Shown in pieces: positions 3,966-37,723 of a stretch of 64,000 bases of DNA; position 1 is the first letter of the stretch; each line of letters begins with the position of its first letter. Origin of the DNA: an uncultured Paracoccus sp. (GTDB taxonomy: Bacteria; Pseudomonadota; Alphaproteobacteria; Rhodobacterales; Rhodobacteraceae); assembly GCF_947496875.1 (NCBI RefSeq), contig NZ_CANMEH010000002.1:124001-188000 (forward strand), in the 5' to 3' direction. The translations under genes were made by a program, and so were the position numbers. The notes beneath the pieces were generated by a model. It made no database searches. It saw only the letters and a program-made list of their open reading frames with translations, and had not been told where the DNA came from.

Positions 3966-4502
3966 ATGGCACAGGACAGTGACAAAACCGTGAGTTCTCT
4001 CGCCGCGGCCGCCAGTGAGGCGAGCCGAAAGGGTCCAGCCCCGGTGCATCTGTGGAACCCGGATTACTGCGGCGAAATGGATCTGACCATCCGGGCAGAC
4101 GGAACCTGGGTGCATGAGGGGCGGGTGATCGCCCGGCCCGAGATGGTGCGGCTGTTCGCTTCGGTCCTGAAGCGCGAGGGGGATCGGTTCTTCCTGGTCA
4201 CGCCGGTCGAAAAGCTGGGCATCACGGTCGAGGACGCCCCTTTTCTGGCGATCGATGCCGACATCACGCCGGACAGCATCACCTTTGCCACCAATGTCGG
4301 GGATCGGGTGACCGCCGGTCCCGACAATCCGATCCGCGTCGAAGATCCCGATCGAACGCCGCGCCCCTATGTGCATGTGCGCCGCGGGCTGGATGCGCTG
4401 ATCGACCGCAAGACGTTCTACCGCCTGGTCGAGGCGGCGGAGACCGGGTCAGATGGGCGACTGGTGCTGCGGTCCGCGGGGGCAGAATTCGAACTGGGCT
4501 GA
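3966..4502 (+). CDS. DUF1285 domain-containing protein
   Basis: MAQDSDKTVSSLAAAASEASRKGPAPVHLWNPDYCGEMDLTIRADGTWVHEGRVIARPEMVRLFASVLKREGDRFFLVTPVEK; divergent from moxR. Confidence 0.85.
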   Translation: MAQDSDKTVSSLAAAASEASRKGPAPVHLWNPDYCGEMDLTIRADGTWVHEGRVIARPEMVRLFASVLKREGDRFFLVTPVEKLGITVEDAPFLAIDADITPDSITFATNVGDRVTAGPDNPIRVEDPDRTPRPYVHVRRGLDALIDRKTFYRLVEAAETGSDGRLVLRSAGAEFELG

Positions 4503-4640: not shown

Positions 4641-4666
4641 GGAACCACGCCGCTCGCCGGATTGTT
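4641..4666 (+). promoter_or_regulatory. EcfG-type (general stress response) promoter-like motif GGAAC-N17-TGTT
   Basis: ggaac cacgccgctcgccggat tgtt; 56 nt upstream of the 24-aa ORF at 4723. Confidence 0.55.
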
Positions 4667-4722
4667 GGCCTGACATCCCACGCCGCGCTTTGCCGGCCCA
4701 AGTCACCAGAGGAAACCCTGAC

Positions 4723-4797
4723 ATGAATTCGATCATCTACATCGTCGGCCTGATTGTTGTCGTGCTGTTCATCCTGTCCATGCTGGGCCTGCGCTGA
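4723..4797 (+). CDS. 24-aa single-TM microprotein (paralog of 36534-36608)
   Basis: ATG to TGA: MNSIIYIVGLIVVVLFILSMLGLR; GAGGAAA RBS-like sequence upstream; 19/24 identical to the second copy. Confidence 0.75.
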   Translation: MNSIIYIVGLIVVVLFILSMLGLR

Positions 4798-4873
4798 CGG
4801 TCCGCGCGGCAGGGTCGGTGGATCGCCCGTCACCGAGGCGCGGGCCACCACCGACCGGGATCACCTGACGAAC

Positions 4874-4902
4874 GCCAGCCGGCCGACAGGCTTTCGGCTG
4901 GC
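4874..4902 (+). terminator. Stem-loop downstream of microprotein A
   Basis: GCCAGCCG ... CGGCTGGC inverted repeat, no clear U tract. Confidence 0.35.
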
Positions 4903-36453: not shown

Positions 36454-36478
36454 GGAACTTGCGCCGTGGGCTGACGTT
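36454..36478 (+). promoter_or_regulatory. EcfG-type promoter-like motif GGAAC-N16-CGTT (exact consensus)
   Basis: ggaac ttgcgccgtgggctga cgtt; 55 nt upstream of ATG at 36534. Confidence 0.65.
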
Positions 36479-36533
36479 CCGTTGCATGGGGACCACCCGA
36501 CGCCGGTCCCACCCATTTCGCAAGGAGTTGGAG

Positions 36534-36608
36534 ATGAGTTCAATCATTTATCTCGTCGGCCTCGTCGTGGTCATCCTGTTCATCCTGTCGTTCCTGGGGC
36601 TGCGCTAA
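36534..36608 (+). CDS. 24-aa single-TM microprotein (paralog of 4723-4797)
   Basis: MSSIIYLVGLVVVILFILSFLGLR; strong AAGGAG RBS; TAATG overlap with next gene. Confidence 0.8.
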   Translation: MSSIIYLVGLVVVILFILSFLGLR

Positions 36609-37723
36609 TGGTGCGGGAAACGGCCGTGACGCCGCCGCGCGGACCAGGGCCCGAGGGCTCGGACCGCAGCTATATCGACTGGGCTGCCATCCTGGCGGGC
36701 GCCGCCATCGCCGCCGGCAGTTCGGTGGTGTTGACCACCTTTGCGGCAGGGCTGGGGCTTGGCGCCATCTCGGCCGATCCGACCGAGGGCATCAGCGGCT
36801 TCGGCCTGGTTCTGACCGCCCTCTTCACGGCCATCTCGATGGTCGCGGTCTACATGCTTGGCGGCTACATCGCCGGCCGCATGCGCAAGCGGGTCGATGC
36901 GGCCGACAAGGATGAGATCACCGCCCGCGACGGCATCCACGGGCTGGTCGTCTGGGCGTTGGGCATGCTGGTCGGCGGCATGCTGGCCATGAACGCCGTC
37001 GGCAGCGGCGCCCGCGCCGTGGGTTCGGCAGCGGGCACGGCCGTCGAGGCGGCGGGGTCCGCCGTCGGCGGCGTCGCGCAGGGCGCCGGGCAACTGGCCG
37101 GTGGCGCGATCTCGGGCGTCGGCCAGATGGTCGGCGGTGCGGCATCGGGGGCCGGTCAGCTGGCCGCCGGCGCAACCGAGAATGCGGGCGAGTTGAGCGA
37201 CATGCTGCCCGAAGGCATGCAGGCCAATCCGCTCGACTATCTCACCGACGGATTGCTGCGGCAGGACGAACCCGGCGCCGGCTATTCCGAGGCGGCGCTG
37301 CGCCGCGAGGTGTCGGGCATCATCATGACGCTGGTGCGCACGGGCGAGATCAGCGAGGCGGACCAGCAGTATCTGCGCTCCGCCGTCGCCGCGCGGACCG
37401 GTCTGTCCGAGGCCGAGGTGAACCAGCGCGTCCAGCAGGCAATCGCGCAGGCCCGGCAGATCCGCCAGGAGGCAGAGCAGCGGCTGGAAGAAGCCGAGCA
37501 GGCGCTGCAGCAGGCCCGCCAGGAAGCCGAGGCCGCGGTCGCGAACGCCAAGGAGGAGGCCATCCAGGCAGCCGAGAACACCCGCCAGGCCGGCGTGCTG
37601 ACCGCCTTCCTTCTCGCGGCCTCGTCGCTGCTGGCCGCGGTCGCCGCCTATATCGGCGCCGTTCGCGGTGGGCGTCACCGCGACGAAAACAAGCTGTGGG
37701 GCGGTCTGCGCTATCACCGCTGA
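36608..37723 (+). CDS. Membrane protein with Gly/Ala-rich linker and long coiled coil
   Basis: ATG overlaps microprotein stop; SYIDWAAILAGAAIAAGSSVVLTTFAAGLGLGAIS..., Ala/Gly/Gln repeats, coiled coil RQIRQEAEQRLEEAEQALQQARQEAEAAVANAKEEA, C-terminal TM. Confidence 0.82.
   Translation: MVRETAVTPPRGPGPEGSDRSYIDWAAILAGAAIAAGSSVVLTTFAAGLGLGAISADPTEGISGFGLVLTALFTAISMVAVYMLGGYIAGRMRKRVDAADKDEITARDGIHGLVVWALGMLVGGMLAMNAVGSGARAVGSAAGTAVEAAGSAVGGVAQGAGQLAGGAISGVGQMVGGAASGAGQLAAGATENAGELSDMLPEGMQANPLDYLTDGLLRQDEPGAGYSEAALRREVSGIIMTLVRTGEISEADQQYLRSAVAARTGLSEAEVNQRVQQAIAQARQIRQEAEQRLEEAEQALQQARQEAEAAVANAKEEAIQAAENTRQAGVLTAFLLAASSLLAAVAAYIGAVRGGRHRDENKLWGGLRYHR

Follow-up and report, generated by a model that had tools for sequence, protein, structure and literature searches.

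Two copies of a 24-codon gene

The window, by which we mean the whole 64,000-nucleotide stretch that was analyzed, carries two copies of a microprotein gene on the forward (+) strand. Copy 1 (4723..4797) runs from an ATG at 4723 to a TGA at 4795-4797 and encodes MNSIIYIVGLIVVVLFILSMLGLR, and copy 2 (36534..36608) ends with TAA and encodes MSSIIYLVGLVVVILFILSFLGLR. A ribosome-binding site can be read from the sequence in front of both, AGAGGA at 4708..4713 (+) for copy 1 and AAGGAG at 36522..36527 (+) for copy 2. The two peptides are identical at 19 of 24 positions (79%) and their genes lie 31.8 kb apart; a whole-genome search with the copy 1 peptide returned copy 2 as the sole other match. Both the short reading frame and its near paralog some 32 kb away had been proposed in the sequence-only reading, and we find them at exactly these positions. 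The frame of copy 1 stays open farther upstream, up to an ATG at 4453 (114 aa). We place the start at 4723 because of the conservation and the ribosome-binding site, and the homologs begin at that codon.

The neighborhoods of the two copies differ. Copy 1 has a DUF1285 gene on one side and typA on the other, whereas copy 2 is neighbored by obgE on the opposite strand and by the gene of a 371-aa membrane protein, which we call YIDW (36608..37723, +) and whose ATG overlaps the stop codon of copy 2 (TAATG). A pattern search 3′ of copy 1 found no intrinsic terminator. There is a stable hairpin lacking a U tract at 4873..4902 (+; fold z = -2.9), which weakly suggests a possible end of the copy 1 transcript.

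A single-sequence search found the peptide in 59 of 61 Paracoccus genomes, among them P. tibetensis, P. sanguinis and P. xiamenensis, with one to three copies in nearly every genome. With a profile it was detected in 34 of 150 genomes of the family (E<=0.001), in 39 of 386 genomes of the class (E<=0.1; 31 are clear at E<1e-6) and in 54 of 398 genomes of the phylum (E<=0.001). Relatives on the alphaproteobacterial side include Bosea, Mesorhizobium, Methylocystis, Brucella/Ochrobactrum, Agrobacterium and Reyranella; further ones come from Polaromonas, Accumulibacter and many Halomonas/Vreelandella, the Burkholderiales being represented as well. The length is exactly 24 aa in 216 of 239 matches, and it stays the same between Paracoccus and Halomonas. 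Among the 183 distinct 24-residue loci G9, V12, L18 and G22 are invariant, Y6 is replaced in a single case, and S19 and R24 are found frequently. A Shine–Dalgarno-like sequence precedes 187 of 203 homologs. Some loci (L014, L016, L049, L054, G024:C78) contain the microprotein gene as a tandem pair, in which the second copy has diverged further and often lacks the terminal GLR.

We calculated pN/pS for 31 Paracoccus sequences and obtained 0.112 in frame; the two alternative frames of the same DNA give 1.84 and 10.8. The first, second and third codon positions have entropies of 0.20, 0.02 and 0.93 bits, and the flanks are unconserved with about 1.8 bits per column. The sequence-only reading had argued for selection on the peptide from the two copies in the window. 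This argument is weak when taken by itself, as the paralog pair shows 8.5 synonymous and 6.5 non-synonymous differences; selection is supported instead by the wide conservation, three proteobacterial lineages keeping the frame, together with the pN/pS of 0.11. The sequence result that would have refuted that reading, a frame not kept beyond the strain and a dN/dS close to 1, was not obtained. We therefore conclude that purifying selection acts on the peptide and that the gene is real, and we regard the selection on the 24 residues as settled by the sequence comparison. It could be objected that short open reading frames are common in GC-rich DNA and that the frame of copy 1 is open over 114 codons, so that a chance reading frame in GC-rich intergenic DNA might have been picked up. 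The pN/pS and the phylogenetic results refute this explanation, to which the codon-position pattern, the ribosome-binding site and the promoter are also contrary, and we consider it vanishingly improbable.

Searches of Pfam, NCBIfam, PHROGs and PDB with the microprotein gave chance-level matches only, and no PDB chain matched the family profile. An identity with MgtR was rejected (E 0.094, with one member). The open-access literature yielded no paper that describes the family or contains the peptide sequence strings, and searches there that combined EcfG with small ORFs or with small membrane proteins returned either no papers or unrelated ones.

A sigma-EcfG-type promoter motif and the general stress response

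Upstream of both copies we find a motif of the sigma-EcfG type. For copy 1 it reads GGAACcacgccgctcgccggattGTT (4641..4666, +) and lies 82 bp upstream of the ATG; for copy 2 it reads GGAACttgcgccgtgggctgacGTT (36454..36478, +) and lies 80 bp upstream. The copy 2 motif is followed by CC, which makes it a near-palindromic GGAAC...GTTCC with a second motif on the other strand at 36456-36480, and it can thus be read both ways, towards the microprotein gene and towards obgE. Nine other homologs are preceded by the same GGAAC...GTTCC arrangement. In the literature the EcfG motif is given as GGAAC-N17-20-GTT (PMC6599016).

We searched for the pattern GGAAC-N16..19-GTT within 220 bp upstream of the start. 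It is present at 111 of 178 homologs from outside the gamma and beta lineages; of 290 starts of other genes in the same loci, 7 have it. We write the promoter motif of the homologs as GGAAC-N17/18-GTT, and its positions cluster 40-100 bp upstream. A stricter pattern was found in 83 of 203 upstream regions, in 3 of 203 downstream regions and in 146 of 4646 random windows. The Fisher P values for the motif overstate the evidence because the Paracoccus loci are related to one another, and a sample of the family with one genome per genus is a cleaner test. There the motif precedes 26 of 30 matches from genomes with NepR and none of the three from genomes lacking NepR. The window itself contains 16 GGAAC-N16..19-GTT sites, more than every one of 100 shuffles (mean 4.0).

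In the alphaproteobacterial general stress response phosphorylated PhyR titrates NepR and sigma-EcfG is thereby freed. NepR is encoded in the source genome (profile match over the cut-off, 46.2 bits), and its gene is flanked by an ECF sigma factor ORF and a PhyR-type ORF, both of which were recognized by reading their sequences. The upstream region of nepR carries GGAACTGTTGGTGCTACCTATCTGTT, with the spacing and the TGTT ending of the copy 1 motif. In the family, sampled with one genome per genus, the microprotein is found in 31 of 65 genomes with NepR and in 3 of 85 genomes without it (P=6e-11), and in the class in 24 of 74 and 7 of 312 genomes, respectively (P=2e-13), these P values being optimistic because gene content follows phylogeny. 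All three NepR-negative family genomes with the microprotein lack the EcfG motif, whereas several of the seven exceptions in the class still have it, an indication that the search overlooked a divergent NepR in some of these genomes. As 34 of the 65 NepR-containing family genomes do not have the peptide, it is not indispensable to the stress response.

EcfG control of the microprotein is well supported by these comparisons, the assignment being a motif match. The sequence-only reading had guessed at a membrane stress peptide, and the stress part of this guess is now backed by the sigma-EcfG motifs and by the co-occurrence with NepR. PhyR of R. sphaeroides has been reported to be important under membrane stress but not in the general response (PMC5830050). 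Possibly PhyR has a specialized role in the Rhodobacterales; a PhyR acting mainly in membrane stress fits the reading as a membrane microprotein but does not prove it.

None of the 19 Halomonas-lineage (gamma) homologs and none of the six beta homologs has the EcfG motif upstream, and EcfG is not known from these lineages. Since Halomonas and the beta lineages keep the peptide without the motif, control by EcfG does not apply everywhere, and the peptide must have a broader function. In Halomonas-lineage loci (e.g., L159, L172, L173, L184) a CTGCTAG(GCT) element lies about 70-80 bp upstream and is kept in 11 of 19 cases. It could be the extended -10 box of another sigma factor.

A stress-type promoter in front of a small hydrophobic peptide, which moreover occurs in tandem in some loci, also brings to mind the type I toxins of the TisB, Ibs or TimP type, which are repressed by an antisense RNA and depolarize the membrane under stress. 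An Rfam search gave no match at either copy in the window, however, and the flanks, at about 1.8 bits per column, show no sign of a conserved RNA, although an antisense RNA of an unknown type may be present. Furthermore, one to three copies are kept in nearly every Paracoccus genome, and the interior of the helix is devoid of charged residues, unlike the amphipathic TisB. We therefore judge a toxin to be improbable.

The neighboring YIDW gene

YIDW was named after its N-terminal motif [ST]Y[IV]DWxAIxAG; GGYIAGRM and a C-terminal GGRHRDE are conserved as well. Neither Pfam nor NCBIfam has a family matching the protein. Its AlphaFold2 model is helical and of moderate confidence (mean pLDDT 77, pTM 0.52), and a fold search with this model gave no match at E below 0.1.

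The microprotein and YIDW genes form a pair in 39 of 111 loci across the alphaproteobacteria, and the pairing recurs in Brucellaceae, Rhizobiaceae, Mesorhizobium, Methylocystis, Reyranella and Rhodospirillaceae. In Paracoccus, YIDW was matched in 31 of 61 genomes (in one of them as a remnant), and by hand count a microprotein copy lies directly upstream of the YIDW gene or remnant in 28 of these 31. Four plasmid records were found with the YIDW protein as query and the peptide was then read from these loci; in all four it overlaps the annotated YIDW start (TGATG/TAATG) and is missing from the gene table, which is known to be incomplete. Plasmid-borne relatives have either a catalase gene or DUF892 and type 1 glutamine amidotransferase-domain genes nearby, and we count these neighbors in favor of the stress reading. 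The pair is also present on IMG/VR contigs called viral (L216-L227), where it is found beside bacterial-type genes. These copies might be cargo of a prophage or host sequence at its margins; they look like the latter because several carry the YIDW gene and bacterial-type neighbors.

This association raises the possibility that the microprotein is a dedicated small subunit or chaperone of YIDW, produced in a fixed ratio through translational coupling as in the case of KdpF or CydX. The position directly upstream in 28 of 31 Paracoccus genomes, the recurrence of the pair in the families and genera named above, and the repeated TGATG/TAATG overlaps, including that of copy 2 in the window and those of the four plasmid loci, all speak for such a role. 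A strict co-occurrence is not observed, however: the microprotein is present in 59 and YIDW in 31 of the 61 Paracoccus genomes, and 28 of the 59 microprotein-bearing genomes have no YIDW match. There is likewise no YIDW gene beside copy 1 in the window and none beside the microprotein in Halomonas, and one Paracoccus genome (G039) has kept the microprotein next to a mere YIDW remnant. We therefore consider an obligate subunit unlikely, and from the gene content YIDW would rather be an optional partner that the microprotein does not require. Several Paracoccus genomes have the microprotein gene together with the YIDW gene upstream of typA. Because such pairs precede typA elsewhere, the arrangement in the window may have arisen by duplication or movement of the pair, with YIDW being lost beside copy 1.

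The start–stop overlap with the YIDW gene and the location of copy 1 upstream of typA would also be compatible with a leader ORF, whose translation merely controls the downstream gene while the peptide itself is inert. A leader needs neither amino acids under purifying selection nor a fixed length, both of which are found here, and the genes downstream of the microprotein are unrelated to each other. We regard this explanation as very improbable, more so than a toxin.

Proposed function and comparison with known small proteins

Taken at the level of the sequences, the overlooked microprotein is very probably a real stress protein. We consider it likely that the two copies are genuine genes whose product is a microprotein that crosses the inner membrane once and belongs to the general stress response of alphaproteobacteria. 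Upon stress PhyR would be phosphorylated and NepR titrated away, and the released sigma-EcfG would transcribe the microprotein gene from the GGAAC-N17/18-GTT promoter. The 24-residue peptide would then be translated and insert as one transmembrane helix, with the C-terminal arginine, which is present in most members and is the sole basis for this topology, probably on the cytoplasmic side. Once inserted, the peptide might act as a small modulator that aids survival under stress, the most likely route being a change to the bilayer or to a complex residing in it, as has been reported for YohP. We favor a bilayer or general membrane action over an obligate YIDW subunit because the peptide persists without YIDW and outside the EcfG lineages. 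An analysis of conservation by helical face showed that no single face stands out (p=0.87), and a specific binding partner can therefore not be argued for from the sequence; a small-residue packing motif was dropped for the same reason.

The nearest studied functional parallel is YohP of E. coli, a membrane microprotein of nearly equal size (27 aa) which is made in starvation and stationary phase (PMC12719787). It has been reported to change the cardiolipin content, the fluidity and the potential of the membrane and to improve stress survival (PMC12719787). The gene context of YohP is unrelated to that of the microprotein. Scored against the family profile, YohP (MKIILWAVLIIFLIGLLVVTGVFKMIF) reaches 10.1 bits, whereas the copies in the window reach 48-50 bits; the alignment is limited to the ten residues IIFLIGLLVV and shifted by six, and 3 of 2000 shuffles of YohP score as well. 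With this low, out-of-register score, homology over the whole peptide was not found. By analogy, an action as a YohP-like membrane modulator can be put forward tentatively, somewhat short of an even chance.

Other known small proteins resemble the microprotein in part. KdpF, CydX and AcrZ are likewise single-span proteins of <50 aa and act on a larger membrane protein, and the microprotein often adjoins the gene of one; in contrast to them it does not have a fixed partner and persists without YIDW. The Thivi_2564 family (NCBIfam NF041949), at 51 aa twice as long as the microprotein, gave a weak match over the C-terminal half (15 bits, E 0.019; best member E 0.0053). As this is well below the curated cut-off of 33 bits, membership was rejected, and the match probably reflects a shared hydrophobic composition.

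Small stress-induced single-span membrane proteins are an already known kind. The family itself is new to Pfam and NCBIfam, has no relative in the PDB, and no descriptive open-access paper on it was found. EcfG regulons have mostly been mapped on annotated genes, and because a gene of 24 codons falls below the usual length cut-off of annotation, this mapping may have passed over a recurrent target of the alphaproteobacterial general stress response. If the comparison with YohP holds, two lineages have separately put a membrane helix of about 25 residues under general stress control. It is also conceivable, though we would not bet on it, that this one transmembrane helix of exactly 24 residues serves proteobacteria widely as an effector of the stressed inner membrane, with sigma-EcfG transcribing it in the alphaproteobacteria and a different promoter, perhaps of a stress type, in Halomonas. 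Few widely conserved stress proteins would then be smaller, and it often travels with an undescribed membrane protein family.

SEP6 of Sinorhizobium meliloti is described as a protein of <30 aa with one predicted transmembrane helix, which is found in the membrane/ribosome pellet and is conserved in Hyphomicrobiales (PMC10117765). Compared by this description only, it resembles the microprotein in size and in its single helix and may serve as a lead.
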